A stretch of DNA of 64,000 nt. Source: Lentzea tibetensis (lineage in GTDB: Bacteria; Actinomycetota; Actinomycetes; Mycobacteriales; Pseudonocardiaceae). This document shows, piece by piece, positions 4,807 to 64,000 of this stretch (its first letter is position 1; each line of letters starts with the position of its first letter). The DNA is taken from assembly GCF_007845675.1 (NCBI RefSeq), contig NZ_VOBR01000032.1, forward strand, positions 1 to 64,000, given 5' to 3'. The position numbers were made by a program, and so were the translations under genes. The notes below the pieces were generated by a model. That model had not been told where the DNA came from. It made no database searches and was given only the letters and a program-made list of their open reading frames with translations.

Positions 4807-7975
<3,169 letters not shown>

Positions 7976-56555: not shown

Positions 56556-57556
56556 GTCAACAGCCGGTACGCGGGGCGTTCGACGTACTTCGTGAGCAGC
56601 CAGCCGAGCACGACGGCCGAGGTCAGGAAGCCCGCCAGCAGCGACCACGACCCGAAGCCGTGCGCGGCGAGCCGGTCCATCACGACCGTGCCGATCTGCT
56701 CGTGCACCAGGTACACGCCGTAGGAGATCCCGGCGAGCCAGGTGATGACGCGCGAACGCCCCCAGTCCGGCCCCTTGGCGGCCGCGCAGACGAGCGCGAG
56801 CAGCACGCCGAACCCGACCGTCGACGCGGTCTCGTTCGTGTGGAAACCCTGCGCCAGCAACGCCGCGACCAGCAGCGCGACCAGGTGCTTCGCACCGAGC
56901 CGGTCCTTGGACCACAGGTAGATCGCGACGCCGGCGGCGAACAGCTGCGCGCGGTGCAGCGCGAACCCGTTGTAGACCGTGAACAGCACCGATGAGTGGC
57001 TGACCAGCGGGCTGAGCAGCAACGGCGTGACGATCAACGCCCACAGCAGCGCCCTGAGCCCCCGCCCGCGCAGGAATCCGACCAGCACGGCGCCCGCGAT
57101 GAACGCCGCGACCTGCACCGGAACCGTCCAGTACGCGAAGTCGACGATGTTGACGTCCGGGAACCACTGCGGCACCAGCAGCAGGTTGTAGACCAGGTCA
57201 CGCCCGTCGAGCTGGCTCCAGCCGTCCGGCGCGACCCAGCGCTGGACGGAGAACGTGAGCACGACCGCCGCCATGTACGCGGGCAGCAGCCTGGCGAGTC
57301 TTCTGCGGAGAAACCGTCCCGAACGTCCGCCTTCGAGGGACGTGCACGCGAAGAAGGCCGAGATGACCATCAGCGTGCTGGCTCCCATGGAGAGCGGGAA
57401 GACGAACGGTGGCGCGCCGAGCTGCGGGTGACTGCTGATGCTGGTCTGCGTCGCGTGGTGCAGCAGCACGCACGCGATCGCGACGACCCGGAGGACGTCC
57501 CAGCTGACCCTGCGGGCGGACCGTTGGGACGGTTCGGTTCGCTGAGCTGGAATCAC
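56417..57556 (-). CDS. acyltransferase family 3 (OafA/NodX-like) membrane protein
   Basis: Ten-helix acyltransferase that O-acylates cell-surface or secreted glycans. It begins near VSWDVLRVVAIACVLLHHATQTSISSHPQLG, which includes the catalytic histidine region (HH), and continues STLMVISAFFACTSLEGG, RFLRRRLARLLPAYMAAVVLTF, DFAYWTVPVQVAAFIAG, and AGISYGVYLVHEQIG. GTG 57556 is chosen; a TTG at 57628 would add 24 residues with no family match. The last 45 residues are basic and proline-rich (RSGRSPRRPSPRVRPVSQPR) and are encoded antisense to the 3' end of the mycothiol-enzyme gene. Conserved sequence ends about where that overlap starts. Confidence 0.82.
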   Translation of the reverse strand: MIPAQRTEPSQRSARRVSWDVLRVVAIACVLLHHATQTSISSHPQLGAPPFVFPLSMGASTLMVISAFFACTSLEGGRSGRFLRRRLARLLPAYMAAVVLTFSVQRWVAPDGWSQLDGRDLVYNLLLVPQWFPDVNIVDFAYWTVPVQVAAFIAGAVLVGFLRGRGLRALLWALIVTPLLLSPLVSHSSVLFTVYNGFALHRAQLFAAGVAIYLWSKDRLGAKHLVALLVAALLAQGFHTNETASTVGFGVLLALVCAAAKGPDWGRSRVITWLAGISYGVYLVHEQIGTVVMDRLAAHGFGSWSLLAGFLTSAVVLGWLLTKYVERPAYRLLTQPQEGRSGRSPRRPSPRVRPVSQPRTSADDPATAALAGLLNVHLR

Positions 57557-57676
57557 GAGATGGGGGGACCTGTTCGAGGTTGCCGGTTGTTGATCGTTGT
57601 CTACCCTAAGAAGGCAACCTTTATGCAACCTGAAGGGTGTGCCTCCTCACCCCGGTTCCGACTACCGTCTGCCACC

Positions 57677-58354
57677 GTGGACGTACTCGAGGACTACACC
57701 GGTCACGTGGATCCAGGCGGCCCCGCCGCCCGCCGTGTTCTGGACGCGCTGACCATCACGAAGATCTCCGTCGGTCCGATGGACAACAACGCCTACCTGC
57801 TCGTTTGCCGTACGACCAACGAGGCGTTGCTCATCGACGCGGCCAACGACCCGGAGCGGATCGGCGATCTGCTCGGCTTCGAGCCGCAGCGCCCGCGACT
57901 GCGCACGATCGTGACCACCCACCAGCACGCCGATCACTGGCAGGCGTTGGGCGCGGTGGCCGGAGCACACGGTTCGAACACCGCCGCACACCCGCTCGAC
58001 GCCCCCGTCCTGCCCGTTCCGCCGGACTTCCTCGTGGAGCACGGCGACACCGTTGACGTGGGCGAAGCCCAGTTGTCGATCATCCACCTGCGCGGGCACA
58101 CGCCGGGGTCGATCGCGCTGCTCTACCGGGACCCGGCCGGGCACCCGCACCTGTTCACCGGAGATTCACTCTTTCCGGGGGGTGTGGGCAAGACCACGTC
58201 GGCCGACAACTTCGCGTCGCTCATCAACGACGTGGAGGACCGGATCTTCGGCACGCTGCCCGACGACACGTGGTTCTACCCCGGTCACGGGGACGACTCG
58301 ACGCTCGGCAAGGAGCGGTCGAACCTCGCGGAGTGGCGCACCCGCGGCTGGTGA
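57677..58354 (+). CDS. metallo-beta-lactamase-fold hydrolase (glyoxalase II-like)
   Basis: Product of 225 residues from GTG 57677. The metal motif THQHADH is at residues 81-87, followed by the downstream histidine in LRGHTPGSIALLY, the aspartate in HLFTGDSLFPGGVGKTTSADNF, and YPGHGDDSTLG. The length and GHTPGS/TGDSLF pattern match glyoxalase II-like thioester hydrolases, which in actinobacteria may act on mycothiol adducts. It is the last high-GC gene before the low-GC island; the next gene's stop is 10 bp away. Confidence 0.9.
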   Translation: MDVLEDYTGHVDPGGPAARRVLDALTITKISVGPMDNNAYLLVCRTTNEALLIDAANDPERIGDLLGFEPQRPRLRTIVTTHQHADHWQALGAVAGAHGSNTAAHPLDAPVLPVPPDFLVEHGDTVDVGEAQLSIIHLRGHTPGSIALLYRDPAGHPHLFTGDSLFPGGVGKTTSADNFASLINDVEDRIFGTLPDDTWFYPGHGDDSTLGKERSNLAEWRTRGW

Positions 58355-58363
58355 CGAATCGAA

Positions 58364-59758
58364 CTAGGTGGGTACGCCCCGGTTGCGCTCAATCAGCCTG
58401 CTTAGCCGGGGCTCGTACTCGCGAACAGCTCGATCGAACTGGAAGCTGTCGAGACTGATCTTACGACCGAGTTCAATCACCCCCTTGATAGTACTGACAG
58501 AAACAGAGAAGTCGCGCTCAAGCAGGAATTTGTATACAGTCTCCAACCATTCTGTACCGGCTCTAGCCATCACCACAAAACTATGCTCAGAAGAGGTTCC
58601 CCGCGTTCGGCAGACATCGTCGAGCGCCTTCAATGCAGCTATCGCGGCTTGACGTTTATCCGAATCGCTCGAATCCTCTGCCGACCTCCTCAAGGTCACG
58701 GACGCCCAACCGGTTTCAACTTTATAATCACCTTCACCACCGCACCCACGCGCGGACTGGAAATAGTTTGCAGCAATTCCAAGATGGTTGCGCTGAAGTT
58801 CAAACTCACCGCGCTGCAACCAGTAGTGGAAGTCGTAGTCCAAGAATTCTTGCACCGAATCATATATTTCCCTGACCGTGTCATCCGGTAGTCGAAATTC
58901 GATCATCAGGGCATGATTGAGAAGACGCACCATAGTTCGCCGATAGGGATTGTTACTGTCATCTATATGCCCCGCATAGCCCGCGTAAAAACGGATCAGC
59001 GACTTCATGACTTCACCCAACAATGACGTGCGCTTTTTGAGTACCACTTTGATCACAGTGTCGGCGATCGTCCGCTGCCTGCAGCGGATCATGCCATTGG
59101 AGCCCCGTACAACCAAGCGCATATGAATCAGTGAGGCTATAGCGCGTTCCATTCGAGCGCTCGGAGCTCCGGGCGACACGATCTGCAACAGATCCACAGA
59201 ATCGACGCCACGCCTTTTGAACACCTCGGCTGACTCAAGAACACAAATCGTCGCATAGACCAATGCCTGACCATCATCTAGTTGCTCGAACTCGCTGCGA
59301 ACCTTATCCTCAAATAATTGCCCTGTCACCACCTGAATCATGGCAACGAGCAGACTATGTTCACACATGCGGCGCAATTCTTCGAGACGCCTGAAAGGCC
59401 ATCGATGCTGCTTGAGCACACCAAGAAGGCCATGCGTCTTGAGCACCTTGATGAGCGATCTCAGGTCGTCGTCGGATAGAGGGTCATCAGCAGAAACATC
59501 GGCCGCCCGAAGGGTGCTGGGCACAAAATCGAGCTTTGTATTGCGTACTGCGGCAACCACCACCGTCTTGCCACCTCTGGTCAACTCCCGCAGTAGAGAT
59601 GCGGCACGGCTACCGAAGATGTCAACATCATCGACGAATATCGCGTCGAGCTCGAGTTCGAGGGCTTCAGCAAGGATCATCTCCAATGATTTAGTAGCCG
59701 ATCGATCCACCCAGCCGACGACGCTCCCCTCCTGATGGAGGCGATATGCACATTGCAT
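58364..59758 (-). pseudogene. STAND-type P-loop ATPase, C-terminal part of a frameshifted gene
   Basis: This frame continues the ATPase begun in 59758-61740. Before the break it reads KTTTLMQCAYRLHQEGSVVGW; then come Walker B LDAIFVDDVDIFGSRAASLL, a sensor-like VVVAAVRNTK, winged-helix-like segments (SLLVAMIQVVTGQLFEDKV, LVYATICVLESAEVFKRRGVD) and a long helical C-terminus (YWLQRGEFELQRNHLGIAANYFQSARG, TPR-like). The only start that could be used is ATG 59758, overlapping the upstream stop as TGATG, and it lies after the Walker A residues. A reinitiated product of 464 residues would therefore lack the P-loop. GC is clearly lower than in flanking genes. Confidence 0.75.
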
Positions 59759-61740
59759 CAATGTCGTCGTCTTGCTGAGCCAGCGGCTCCGCGCAGGATG
59801 ACGATGCTTCGACTTTCTCCGCCGAACTTGCGCGTCTCGTCGAGCACACGGTCCGACACCGAGAGCCGGGCAGCGTAATTCCCGGTGATGTCTCCCCACT
59901 CGGGCTCACTGCCTTTAAGGAATCCTTTTGACCCCTTAGCCAACTTGTCGATCATGGTCGATACCAGGGACATTCCTGTCGCCGCGTCGCGAACAGCCAG
60001 TGACTCGGCTAGCCGTCTTTTGCCCTGCTCAAGTCTCTGGTTGCCCGGCCGAAGCCGCGCATCTGCAAAGGAGGTGGGCGACTCACAGATGTGACGTAAT
60101 CCGCTGTGGTGGATGCGGGCGCGCTCGGAGGAACCCGCTTCGGGAGCAACGATAAAGCGAGGGTAACTGCCTGAGCCTGACGGGAGGTTCAACGACGATA
60201 GGACTCGCCACAATGCGACGCTGTGGGCCGACTCGGCGAAGAACACCACCGGGTGGTAAACGATCTCCGCTCGCAAGCGGTTGAACCACAGCGCTCGCGC
60301 CGATGGCGTATCTGCGGCAGGCACGCTGAAGTCAACAGAGATCGAGCTGCCATCGAAGCAGCCGTTCATCGCGGTGACCTCGCAGGCATTTTGCCGGTCT
60401 CCCGGCTTCTTCGTCAGCGCGCTCGTCAGTATCACGGGCGTCAGCTTGCCCTCGGCGAGCACTTTGATAGCGCCAGACGCGGAGAAGTCGTAGACCCGCC
60501 ACCACGGGCTGCTCAGTACCCGGTGAAGGTCGGGATAGAGTGAGTCCACATCACCCCGCAAACCGTTGAGCGTATTCTCCAAGCGGTTGGCGGGCAGGTG
60601 GGCCTGCGCTGCGGACCAAATCTCGTCCATACTCGGCTCCGGCTGTGGAACCTGGCCGAACACGTCCACCGCGAGCTGTCTACTGAGCGTGTCAAGGTCG
60701 ACCACCGCCCCACCTCCGGGGAGGCCGGATACCAAGACAGCGATCATCTGACCGGACTCAACCTGGCGATAGAAGTCCGACAACACCTGCGCAGCGTCGC
60801 AATCCTCCACGAGGGCATCAACGGGCGCGGGCGCAATAGCCAAGGAATTGTGAAAGGAAAGCGACGACAGCGGGATGGCAGACTTTCCAGCCCGTTTAGC
60901 CGAGTCCTGCACCACCGGTACACCCTTGTGATCGAAGCCGATCTTCATGCAAACAGGCTTTTTAGGATCAGCTACAAACCAGCCTCTCCGTTTAGGCGAT
61001 GGTTCGAGCCTCGCATTCCCACCTGAGATCAGTAGAGTCGACGACCGGGCATCCAACAGCCTCGGAGGAGGAGCTGATAAACCCGAGACAATCAAAGTGA
61101 GTGCGTTGGAGTTGGCCCACTCCTTCCAAGACTCGCCAACAGCGTGCTGCAGTTGTTCGCCGGCCAGCACGACGTGGTCGAGGCTTAGTTCCGGGCCAAC
61201 TCCGCGGAAGATCGAGTTGACCACCACGAGCCCGATCTGATGGTTTCCCGTCTTGACCGTGAGCGACCCTTCTCCCGGTAACACTCCCTGGTGCCAGTCC
61301 GGCAACTCCGCGACGACTGGTCGTTGCCACGCGAGGTAGTCGGGGAAAATCTTGTGCTCGAGAGCCTCGATGACATCTTCCTGTTCTCCGGCCCACACAC
61401 CCTGATCTACCTCGTGCCATCTTCGCACGAGAGTATCGACGAGCATGTGGCGTGACGGAATCGAGCGCATGTCTCCTAGCCCAGGCACTGGCACTACAAG
61501 CGGAAAGTCGGCGGCCCCAGCATCAAGACACCCCTCCTGGACGGCGTCTATCAACTGGTTGCCAGCGATGTAAATGCTGGAGTCAGGGGTACTCCCACCG
61601 ATGAGAACAACCAGGTCGAGTTCACCACCTACCTGACGAGCACTTTCGACAGAACGAGCAGTGAACCTCTGTAGCTCCTCGCACCACCCCTCATCCACCT
61701 TGTCGATGACAAGCGGCAGGACGTGCACAACCGGATCCAC
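59758..61740 (-). CDS. degenerate metallophosphoesterase plus SIR2-like protein, N-terminal part of a frameshifted gene
   Basis: Product of 660 residues from GTG 61740, preceded by GAAGGTG. Residues about 1-230 follow the calcineurin-like phosphoesterase pattern, but the catalytic sites are lost. VVHVLPLVID replaces the DxH strand, DLVVLIGGS replaces the TGD motif, VPVPGLGDM replaces PGNHD, and LTLIVSGLSAPPP replaces the THHP motif. Residues about 300-560 resemble a SIR2-like domain, also degenerate (VLVSGLPGGG for GAGAS, CEVTAMNGCFDGSS for the HG loop, PVVFFAESAHSVALWRVL for the final strand). The frame ends SIVILRGAAGSARRRH, where GAAGSGKTTT is expected: one G is missing near 59775. Restored, the protein would be about 1125 residues. 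Confidence 0.75.
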   Translation of the reverse strand: MDPVVHVLPLVIDKVDEGWCEELQRFTARSVESARQVGGELDLVVLIGGSTPDSSIYIAGNQLIDAVQEGCLDAGAADFPLVVPVPGLGDMRSIPSRHMLVDTLVRRWHEVDQGVWAGEQEDVIEALEHKIFPDYLAWQRPVVAELPDWHQGVLPGEGSLTVKTGNHQIGLVVVNSIFRGVGPELSLDHVVLAGEQLQHAVGESWKEWANSNALTLIVSGLSAPPPRLLDARSSTLLISGGNARLEPSPKRRGWFVADPKKPVCMKIGFDHKGVPVVQDSAKRAGKSAIPLSSLSFHNSLAIAPAPVDALVEDCDAAQVLSDFYRQVESGQMIAVLVSGLPGGGAVVDLDTLSRQLAVDVFGQVPQPEPSMDEIWSAAQAHLPANRLENTLNGLRGDVDSLYPDLHRVLSSPWWRVYDFSASGAIKVLAEGKLTPVILTSALTKKPGDRQNACEVTAMNGCFDGSSISVDFSVPAADTPSARALWFNRLRAEIVYHPVVFFAESAHSVALWRVLSSLNLPSGSGSYPRFIVAPEAGSSERARIHHSGLRHICESPTSFADARLRPGNQRLEQGKRRLAESLAVRDAATGMSLVSTMIDKLAKGSKGFLKGSEPEWGDITGNYAARLSVSDRVLDETRKFGGESRSIVILRGAAGSARRRH

Positions 61741-61742
61741 TT

Positions 61743-62429
61743 CTATTCACCTTCTAAGCTGACAGCTAGGATTTCACCCTTCGGAATGTGCAGCGCAAAC
61801 TTCTCGGCTGCGCACCCAGACTGGGTCAACTCGATCTCCACAAATTGAGTGACGAGAGATTCCTTGTTGATGTCGCCCACCAGTCTCTCGGTCAACAACG
61901 GACACAGCTTTTGCAACTCCACTACGTACTTCGCACTGACGAGCACATCACCGCGACCAGTCCGGCCAGATGAGCTAAATAGAAACAGCGCGAAGGTAAG
62001 CATCGTCAGTAAGACGGCGCCTACAACTGCAATATTCGCCCACTTCTGCCGGCTATCGATCTGCTCAGCCTCGTTTTGCGCCTTCTTGAGGACCAGATTA
62101 ATTAGGTCGAGACGGTTCTTTACATGGCTGGTATCTGTCCAGGCGCGCACTGGGACCGCTACCGCTCTCAAGTAGAGGATGCCCGCGCATAGCCACAACA
62201 CAACCGCAGCGAGACCTGCTACACGGATAAGTGGCGGCCTTTCCGCCAATGCGGTGAAGGTGAACGCTGCCACAAGGCCACCCGAAAAAACTGTGATGGT
62301 CGACTGCGCAGCCTGCGCTCGCACGCGAGCAGCACTACTCGAGCGCACACGATCGGAGTAATACGCCTCACTAGCAGGTCCGATCACCGCATCGATGAGG
62401 AGTTCTTGTTCAGAGTTCTCCGACGTCAC
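61743..62429 (-). CDS. three-helix membrane protein of the island
   Basis: Product of about 228 residues from GTG 62429 (VTSENSEQELLIDAV). A longer start at 62513 is possible but adds sequence without pattern. Helices lie at about 45-65 (STITVFSGGLVAAFTFTALA), 72-95 (VAGLAAVVLWLCAGILYLRA) and 128-150 (WANIAVVGAVLLTMLTFALFLF). The loop between the second and third is charged and helical (SHVKNRLDLINLVLKKAQNEAEQIDSRQK). The C-terminal 75 residues form a soluble domain. Its stop is 2 bases before the start of the large three-domain gene, so the two form one operon. The layout is like SLATT/effector-type membrane proteins of bacterial conflict systems, but no family match is certain. Confidence 0.72.
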   Translation of the reverse strand: MTSENSEQELLIDAVIGPASEAYYSDRVRSSSAARVRAQAAQSTITVFSGGLVAAFTFTALAERPPLIRVAGLAAVVLWLCAGILYLRAVAVPVRAWTDTSHVKNRLDLINLVLKKAQNEAEQIDSRQKWANIAVVGAVLLTMLTFALFLFSSSGRTGRGDVLVSAKYVVELQKLCPLLTERLVGDINKESLVTQFVEIELTQSGCAAEKFALHIPKGEILAVSLEGE

Positions 62430-62831: not shown

Positions 62832-63158
62832 ATGTCGACGAACCTGGTGTTACGCGCGGACCAACAGTCGCTCTGGCTGTGCTTCGAGCCGTGGGCGACG
62901 GAGTACACCGCCCTGCCCGGCACAACGATCGTCATCCGCTTCCACAACGAGACACCGGTCGAGGTGGCCCACCACCGCGACGGGATGACGTTCTTCACCC
63001 TCGGCCGGCACCCGGACCTCTACGCCGAGGACGGCACACCGGTGGAGATCTACAGCGAGTACCTGCCCGAGACGCCGAAAGGGGTCCCGATCAGCGGGTT
63101 CCGGTTCATCATGGAGGCGGTCCCGCCCGTCAGGAGCGAGCCGGACCGCCTGAACTAG
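62832..63158 (+). CDS. hypothetical protein (108 residues)
   Basis: A small soluble protein, MSTNLVLRADQQSLWLCFEPWATEYTALPGTTIVIRFHNETPVEVAHHRDGMTFFTLGRHPDLYAEDGTPVEIYSEYLPETPKG and so on, with normal high GC and codon use. It is mostly beta, with no signal peptide and no known motif. ATG 62832. Its TAG stop directly abuts the stop of the convergent RCC1-type gene (63156-63161, no gap). Confidence 0.65.
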   Translation: MSTNLVLRADQQSLWLCFEPWATEYTALPGTTIVIRFHNETPVEVAHHRDGMTFFTLGRHPDLYAEDGTPVEIYSEYLPETPKGVPISGFRFIMEAVPPVRSEPDRLN

Positions 63159-64000
63159 CTACTTGAGAACGGCGTTGAAGTACCCGCCCGCGGAAATGGC
63201 CGTCACGCCGGACTTCGCGGTGACCGGTACGTCGCTCTGCCCGGAGTGGTTGTGCCACCAGGCGATGACCTCGCCGTTGTCCTTGAGCGCCAGGCTGTGT
63301 TGCGAGCCCGCGCTCACCGCGACCACGTGGTCGTCGACCTCGATGGGCATGTCGAGCTGGTGGTAGGCGTTGTTGCCCCAGCCGATGACCCGCCCGTTCT
63401 TGACGGCGACCGTGAACGACGCGCCCGCCGACACGGACGTGACGCCGGACTTCGCTTCCTCCGGGACGTCGCACTCACCGAAGTTGTTCGGCCCCCAGCA
63501 CAGCACCTCGCCGTCCTTCAGCGCCACGCTGAAGTACATGCCGGCGGAGATCGCGTCCACACCCGACTGCGCCTCGAGCGGAACCTTGAGCTCGCCGTGG
63601 TTCCCCATGCCCCACGCGATGACCTTGCCGTCGGTGTCGAGCGCGAGGTTGTGCAGGTAGCCCGCGGCGACGTGGGTGATGCCGGACTGCGTCTCGGGCG
63701 GCGGCGCCAGCACCTGGCCGGGCCCGGTGTACCGGCCCCACGACCAGACCTTGCCGTTCTTGATCGCGAGGCTCTGGTGGTTGCCCGCGGCGACCTCGGT
63801 GACGCCGCCGCGGCGCAGGTCGATCGGCACGAACGCCTTGTCCTCGGACGAGTCGCCCCAGTGGATCGGCACGCCGTTCTTGAGCGCCAGACCGTGTGCG
63901 AGGCCCGCGGAGACCATGGTGACGCCGTCCGCCGTGGTGGCGGGCGGCGTGGACTGACCGTAGTAGTTGCTGCCCCACGCGACGACCTGTCCGGTCGCCG
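63159..64000 (-). CDS. RCC1-repeat beta-propeller protein (partial, 5' end beyond window)
   Basis: At least 280 residues of tandem RCC1-type blades, about 38-45 residues each, with the pattern GVTxVSAGxxHSLALKxGxVIxWGxNxxGQxxVP. Examples are VAVSAGSQHSLALKDNGEVIAWWHNHSGQSDVPVTAKSGVTAISAG, SVSAGASFTVAVKNGRVIGWGNNAYHQLDMP and HVAAGYLHNLALDTDGKVIAWGMGNHGELKVPLEAQ. The frame stays open through 64000 (VVAWGSNYYGQSTPP), so the gene starts outside the window. An internal ATG at 63917 is not the true start. About six blades are visible, enough for most of a propeller. Bacterial RCC1 proteins are often secreted; the signal region is not in view. Confidence 0.85.
   Translation of the reverse strand, partial: ATGQVVAWGSNYYGQSTPPATTADGVTMVSAGLAHGLALKNGVPIHWGDSSEDKAFVPIDLRRGGVTEVAAGNHQSLAIKNGKVWSWGRYTGPGQVLAPPPETQSGITHVAAGYLHNLALDTDGKVIAWGMGNHGELKVPLEAQSGVDAISAGMYFSVALKDGEVLCWGPNNFGECDVPEEAKSGVTSVSAGASFTVAVKNGRVIGWGNNAYHQLDMPIEVDDHVVAVSAGSQHSLALKDNGEVIAWWHNHSGQSDVPVTAKSGVTAISAGGYFNAVLK

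Follow-up and report, generated by a model that had tools for sequence, protein, structure and literature searches.

Two adjacent genes at positions 58364-62429 of a 64,000-nucleotide (nt) stretch of Lentzea tibetensis DNA (contig NZ_VOBR01000032.1; the whole stretch is called the window below) encode a predicted three-helix membrane protein and a large protein in which a metallophosphoesterase (MPE)-like domain, a SIR2-like domain, a STAND-type NTPase domain and a helical tail follow one another (Table 1). On balance, the pair is likely to form one operon of a horizontally moving anti-phage (or anti-mobile-element) STAND system, in which retired enzymes serve as a scaffold and the membrane protein is the effector. 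Directly supported are the pairing of the genes, the predicted folds, the loss of catalytic residues, purifying selection, the variable genomic sites, and the existence of unpaired relatives with one working-looking enzyme. An earlier sequence-only reading had described the two genes as a low-GC island, and composition agrees: their GC content is 57.0%, against 69.2% in the rest of the window, and the lowest value among 1086 other 4066-bp segments (50-bp steps, none overlapping the gene pair) is 66.4%.

Conserved pairing and predicted folds

A homologue of the large gene was detected in one of 199 other related genomes (G145, from the same order; unbroken, 1120 residues), and around that genome six of 201 genomes, all from one genus, carried full-length unbroken homologues, with three more weak partial matches. 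Scanning of an 84,980-species collection with an alignment of the C-terminal half returned 18 loci, from Micromonospora, Actinoplanes, Streptomyces, Nonomuraea, Nocardia wallacei and three metagenome-assembled genomes outside the Actinobacteria; the N-terminal piece found no match in the same collection. A Streptomyces sample held the large gene in four of 343 genomes, the query genome itself being one of the four. With duplicates counted once (L017=L031, L018=L028, L020=L029, L021=L030 and L073=L038), 19 distinct full-length paired loci were obtained (the window, L016, L019, L027-L039, L041, L074 and L075), all of them in actinomycetes. As the sequence-only reading had predicted, the two genes travel together: in all 19 loci, which span five genera and include the window, the gene immediately upstream of the large one is a membrane-gene homologue. 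The 2-bp gap noted between the window genes, from the membrane open reading frame (ORF) to the start of the large one at 61740, was also found as described, and in the 14 loci from the 84,980-species collection the gap lies between -8 and +8 nt, given the start codons chosen. Among the relatives examined, no large-gene homologue with both enzymes dead was seen without the membrane gene. Conversely, a profile of the membrane family, applied to the best 16-17 candidates per genome, found nothing in 168 genomes of the class besides the window genome, and nothing in 169 Streptomyces genomes (the two samples possibly overlap) besides the genome of L041; in both, the match stands beside the large gene.

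The large gene of the window is open in two successive frames, 59758-61740 and 58364-59899, over a span of 3377 bp that is not divisible by 3. Pfam nSTAND_NTPase5 (PF25199) matches both pieces, the N-terminal one with 32.3 bits (profile positions 2-52), just below the 34-bit cut-off, and the C-terminal one with 60.2 bits (positions 54-136), above it; the frame break thus falls inside the P-loop, and the restored protein of about 1125 residues is as proposed from the sequence. The same profile scored 86.7-131.7 bits in eight of nine relatives scanned, the ninth being the truncated L043 (17.9 bits). In a phylum-level survey, 13 of 296 were over the cut-off; the default threshold was too loose, matching 292 of 296, and controls behaved likewise (14/14 at the default threshold, 0/14 over the cut-off). 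An accidental overlap of ORFs was considered and rejected, since Pfam, selection and synteny are all contrary to it.

In the window copy, Pfam missed both MPE and SIR2, and a sequence search of the PDB with the N-terminal piece gave no match. Both domains were recognised through the predicted structure, through profile tests against relatives, and through relatives that Pfam does recognise. In the structure predicted for residues 1-600, compared by VIA re-ranking of Foldseek candidates, residues 1-294 match phosphoesterases and residues 310-572 match defence SIR2 domains; the calcineurin-like and SIR2 folds claimed for the restored protein are both seen in this model, in that order. The model also matches the EfAvs5 and AVAST5 filament structures. 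The tail is conserved across the family of large-gene homologues and matches the Avs5 tail weakly (E 0.004 with PADLOC, 0.021 with NCBIfam); weak tetratricopeptide repeat (TPR) matches occur in the tails of relatives. PADLOC gave weak partial matches only for the window proteins.

The first gene had been read as coding for a three-helix membrane protein, and here hydropathy, with three hydrophobic segments, and an AlphaFold2 model, with three long helices, agree; the transmembrane (TM) helices are predicted at about residues 44-62, 67-85 and 133-151. The model (mean pLDDT 72.9, pTM 0.46) has a long N-terminal helix that continues as TM1; a charged helical loop separates TM2 from TM3, after which comes a small alpha/beta domain. 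This C-terminal domain (157-225) contains two cysteines (176 and 206) that are invariant across 15 homologues, and the charge pattern suggests that it lies outside the cell. The topology is presumably only loosely like that of SLATT-type effectors; no SLATT model was among the Pfam matches with E<=1 that were listed for 15 family members, and PADLOC gave no model either.

Degenerate enzyme domains, selection and variable sites

Metallophosphoesterases hold their metals through the motifs DxH, GDxx, GNHD, HHP and GHxH. Catalytic residues were tabulated for 17 aligned paired loci, with pieces L071 and L040 of the unpaired Nocardia wallacei locus as references for the MPE motifs; L074 and L075 were checked by pattern search only, and L016, L019, L074 and L075 were left out of alignments A4 and A5. 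DxH, exact GNHD, HHP and GHxH are absent from all 17 loci, and the window copy has no metal-ligand motif intact. The SIR2-like domain has lost GAGxS, the Asn of TxN, the Asp and the Glu in every one of the 17, window included. The pattern search of L074 and L075 found no GAGxS, GNHD, DxHFG or GHxH. Residue by residue, the judgement that both enzymatic domains look dead holds up, subject to a retained NG/HG motif that is weighed below.

By their motifs, four unpaired relatives appear to keep one working-looking effector each, SIR2 in three and MPE in one. The full SIR2 residue set is kept in L042, L044 and L072, none of which has a recognised MPE or a partner gene; L072 comes from the genus Nocardia, and its tail is broken by stops. 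In N. wallacei, DxH, GD and GNHD stand on one contig piece and HHP and GHLH on the other (L071/L040). These pieces share an identical 141-bp end, there is no partner gene nearby, and the SIR2 part is degenerate. As judged from sequence, all 23 members that could be assessed would thus have one candidate effector, be it SIR2, MPE or the membrane partner. The L070 end of another N. wallacei contig (C378) carries the 141-bp start of L040 followed by G-rich low-complexity sequence, and this contig is probably an assembly artefact.

In a tree rooted on the SIR2-intact L042 and L044, the paired loci group into a single clade, to which N. wallacei is sister (support 0.947); the truncated L043 and the broken-tailed L072, used for motifs only, were omitted. 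In it, the window copy falls with the loci of Streptomyces and Nonomuraea and is separated from those of Micromonospora and Actinoplanes (support 0.998), although its genome belongs to the same order as Micromonospora, which fits horizontal transfer. Ratios of non-synonymous to synonymous substitution (dN/dS), taken from five close pairs of relatives that share some members and do not include the window, were 0.23-0.41 for the MPE-like domain, 0.21-0.35 for the SIR2-like domain, 0.09-0.23 for the NTPase, 0.12-0.22 for the tail and 0.13-0.32 for the membrane gene. By these estimates, both genes are under purifying selection among relatives, and the dead domains are maintained, the MPE-like one most loosely.

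The sites occupied by the pair were expected to be variable, and they are. A gene for a metallo-beta-lactamase (MBL)-fold hydrolase borders the insert in the window and is present in all 25 same-genus genomes. Every one of the 24 other genomes of the genus shares the left flank as far as the stop of this gene, and 23 of them share the right flank, a DUF7711 gene, the locus of G015 ending at a contig end. Between these flanks lie about 7 bp in G020, about 15 bp in G006 and about 1-33 kb in the other same-genus genomes. In Micromonospora, the pair sits between pheT and argC (L016, 5456-9735). Among 30 argC loci from 41 Micromonospora genomes (L137-L166), the pair occurs in two, pheT lies at 145-177 bp in three and at 743 bp in one, and in 24 it was not within the fetched flank (<=1.5 kb), which one contig end cut short; this junction therefore varies between species. 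Mobile and defence neighbours were recorded for the own-genus site, and the Micromonospora site was scored for variability only.

Proposed mechanism and alternatives

We propose that the C-terminal helical tail would bind a phage product, and that ATP-driven oligomerisation of the nSTAND5 module would then cluster the N-terminal MPE and SIR2 folds. Having lost catalysis, these folds would act as a scaffold, and the cluster would recruit or open the three-helix membrane partner. Damage by this partner to the infected cell's membrane would then keep the phage from completing its cycle. Phage sensing, oligomerisation, the effector role of the membrane protein and membrane damage are the conjectural steps of this scheme.

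Several known systems resemble parts of it. In Avs5 (AVAST type 5, SIR2-STAND), too, a STAND NTPase stands between a SIR2 fold and a helical tail at the C-terminus, the tail of Avs5 being a TPR/Sel1 sensor, and the structural match and the weak tail match given above are to Avs5; unlike Avs5, the window family has lost the catalytic SIR2 residues, carries an additional N-terminal MPE-like domain, matches the nSTAND5 profile, and has a separate membrane gene. Against NCBIfam NF041814 (Avs5), the two pieces, scanned separately, reached 12.7 bits over 28 residues, with a cut-off of 1000. Membership in Avs5 proper was rejected, as both the profile score and the catalytic residues fail. According to the accessible part of an eLife 2021 article (PMC8195603), STAND, TRADD-N and related conflict proteins can exchange their effector domains, and calcineurin-like phosphoesterase and SIR2 are among those listed; that part describes neither the two domains together in one protein, nor a degenerate form, nor the membrane partner seen here. 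In its logic, the nearest precedent is that of the inactive long-B Argonautes, which pair with nucleases, SIR2 or trans-membrane proteins in the portion of PMC10620215 that was available. As with BPAM from that source, an inactive sensor is joined by a separate membrane protein as candidate effector, whereas the Argonaute sensor is guided by RNA and unrelated; the likeness is one of logic. The MPE part of the unpaired Nocardia L040 matches the PADLOC candidate PDC-S60 (E 2.5e-8, positions 158-251 of 1027), whereas five other members scanned and the window pieces do not; PDC-S60 is a candidate only, and a literature search on its name found no paper. Searches for a description of a system of this make-up found none, with thin coverage of subscription journals, so absence is unproven.

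Of five weak matches that were checked (G068, G038, G189, G621 and G502), none was counted as a relative. The match in G189 (L024, minus strand near 7973) is a distant SIR2-STAND protein with an open frame, intact GAGAS, TTNFD and Walker A motifs, and no membrane-gene homologue at the locus; the other four, without GAGAS, TTNFD or Walker A motifs, look spurious.

The proposed operon has to be weighed against other explanations. That SIR2 or MPE remains active by an altered mechanism, making the system an Avs5-like NADase of the ordinary kind to which the membrane protein is accessory, is very improbable. Such activity would suit the purifying selection on both domains, and some residues do survive: of the 17 aligned paired loci, 16 keep NG/HG, five keep the GD of MPE motif II (L031, L028, L029, L030 and L016), and another five the H-D of motif III, GNHD (L038, L034, L035, L033 and L039). 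In Avs5, NG can replace HG with activity retained, as stated in the accessible text of PMC12931631. The same text gives GAGxS and TTNxD as the defining motifs of the Avs5 SIR2 domain, together with a required catalytic Glu, and reports that alanine at N110, D112 or E202 abolishes immunity by PaAvs5; the GAGxS motif and the catalytic Asn, Asp and Glu are all gone from the paired loci, and this argues against activity of the SIR2-like domain, as the missing DxH, HHP and GHxH motifs do for the MPE-like one. It is rather unlikely that the membrane protein is an anchor, sensor or inhibitor, with the output elsewhere, for instance in a nucleotide-sensing pseudo-SIR2 domain or a third protein. A Cys-containing domain outside the cell would be in keeping with an anchor or sensor, and Avs5 gathers at membrane-associated phage compartments (PMC12931631, accessible text). 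Also on this side, no third conserved gene stands out by eye in the seven loci with listed ORFs, and the output is thereby left without an assigned carrier. Against it, paired members would be left without an effector, whereas each of the unpaired L040/L071, L042, L044 and L072 has one with its motifs intact. A role in actinomycete physiology other than defence, such as envelope stress or developmental signalling, at a variable locus would accommodate the restriction of paired loci to actinomycetes and the shared pheT-argC site of the Micromonospora copies. It is improbable given the very patchy distribution in the related and Streptomyces genomes, the near-empty sites in close relatives, a phylogeny at odds with taxonomy, and the known defence systems hosted by the docking site in the genus.

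A different matter is whether the window copy itself is a dying pseudogene without function in this strain, which would be independent of what the family does and whose probability does not add to those of the other explanations. This is a serious possibility, though we would put it below even: the P-loop frame is broken in the window and in none of the 18 other paired members, by real mutation or by assembly error, and the copy may be non-functional. However, the frame stays open for 468 codons past the break and the membrane gene is undamaged, so the break is either recent or an error of assembly.

Several further points, besides the surviving catalytic remnants and the broken window copy, count against the proposed anti-phage operon. 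As the paired loci form a single clade, the combination of a present partner with dead enzymes may reflect one event and not many. The window membrane protein has no Pfam match over the cut-off and no PADLOC match at E<=1; among 15 members of its family the best Pfam match is TrbL_3 (E 5e-4, in two of 15). A structural comparison of its model gave nothing above the background expected from helices, so that a pore role is at most putative. With the best 16-17 candidates per genome scored, a divergent lone membrane gene could have been missed. A plasmid collection searched with both pieces gave no match, viral contigs held no relative of either protein, and the Micromonospora loci, colinear at one site, look partly vertical. 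The anti-phage role is a proposal argued from anatomy and evolution.

With not quite even confidence, we suggest that a STAND sensor retains a phosphoesterase and a sirtuin, its two successive effectors, as dead scaffolds and has passed killing to a separate membrane protein, with unpaired relatives still carrying a working-looking SIR2 or MPE. If so, NLR-like bacterial sensors would be shown changing weapons, with a trans-acting membrane protein taking over and the old enzymes remaining as structural adaptors, in parallel to the inactive Argonautes with membrane partners. The membrane protein would represent an effector family outside the profile libraries searched. Moreover, a natural series would exist on one NTPase chassis (SIR2 working-looking, MPE working-looking, and both dead with a membrane partner), making effector coupling testable by swaps of parts.

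Docking site, neighbouring cargo and feature coordinates

Extra copies of the MBL 3' end were found in nine of the 24 other same-genus genomes. Replacement of the resident 3' end was seen in G001, G017 and G024, where the usual end reappears after about another 23-29 kb. About 17 bp from this displaced copy, a serine-recombinase-type gene starts in G001 and G017. The genes of G001 and G024 carry Pfam Resolvase and Recombinase domains, and that of G017 was judged by eye. The replaced and displaced ends indicate that serine-integrase elements of the genus attach at the MBL gene, with an attachment core at about 58153-58179 in the window (element loci L078/L079, L090/L091 and L092/L093). Further copies of the 3' end suggest serial accretion of cargo, and this docking site could be a handle for more defence cargo in the genus.

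From these inserts, 19 distinct proteins were scanned (10 by PADLOC and 10 by Pfam, with four in both, and three more). The hotspot of G001 contains the DISARM set DrmD, DrmMI, DrmA and DrmB as identified by PADLOC (L092:6017-18491 and L093:3-2750), along with a relaxase, and that of G024 a SAVED-domain protein (CBASS-like) and a PD-Lambda-2_B protein (L078:8468-9934 and L078:12836-13924). At L099 in G015, ORFs similar to the DISARM set of G001 were seen by eye, and one ORF of G017 (L090:1-2898) combines a caspase-like N-terminal match with HamB-like helicase matches. L091:11702-13405, L093:16318-16779, L078:14193-14627 and L091:5492-6781 had no match in the libraries against which each was scanned.

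Table 1. Coordinates of the gene pair, its domains and adjacent features in the window
Feature	Position	Strand	Basis or remark
Membrane protein gene	61743..62429	-	ORF, GTG start per alignment of homologues; 228 aa
Large gene (MPE-like, SIR2-like, nSTAND5, helical tail)	58364..61740	-	Two ORF pieces; about 1125 residues
Degenerate metallophosphoesterase domain (residues 1-294)	60859..61740	-	
Degenerate SIR2 domain (residues 310-572)	60025..60813	-	
nSTAND_NTPase5 domain (PF25199), split by frame break at about 59760-59776	59534..59925	-	
C-terminal helical tail, putative sensor region	58364..59533	-	Family conservation, dN/dS, weak Avs5/TPR matches
MBL-fold hydrolase gene	57500..58354	+	Lactamase_B E 3.2e-14
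Small ORF, same insert	62832..63158	+	Host-like codon composition
RCC1-repeat protein gene, right part of insert	63159..64000, on to 64073 of its own contig	-	RCC1 Pfam matches, full ORF

The view that the pair is flanked simply by housekeeping genes did not survive: to the left stands the MBL gene with its integration site, and the right part of the insert is host-like, with a GC content at codon position 3 of 0.94-0.96 over 62832-64073. In G001, G005 and G019, the right flank contains DNA homologous to the small ORF, but at another position. The RCC1-repeat gene, of host-like composition, shares its insert with the low-GC pair.

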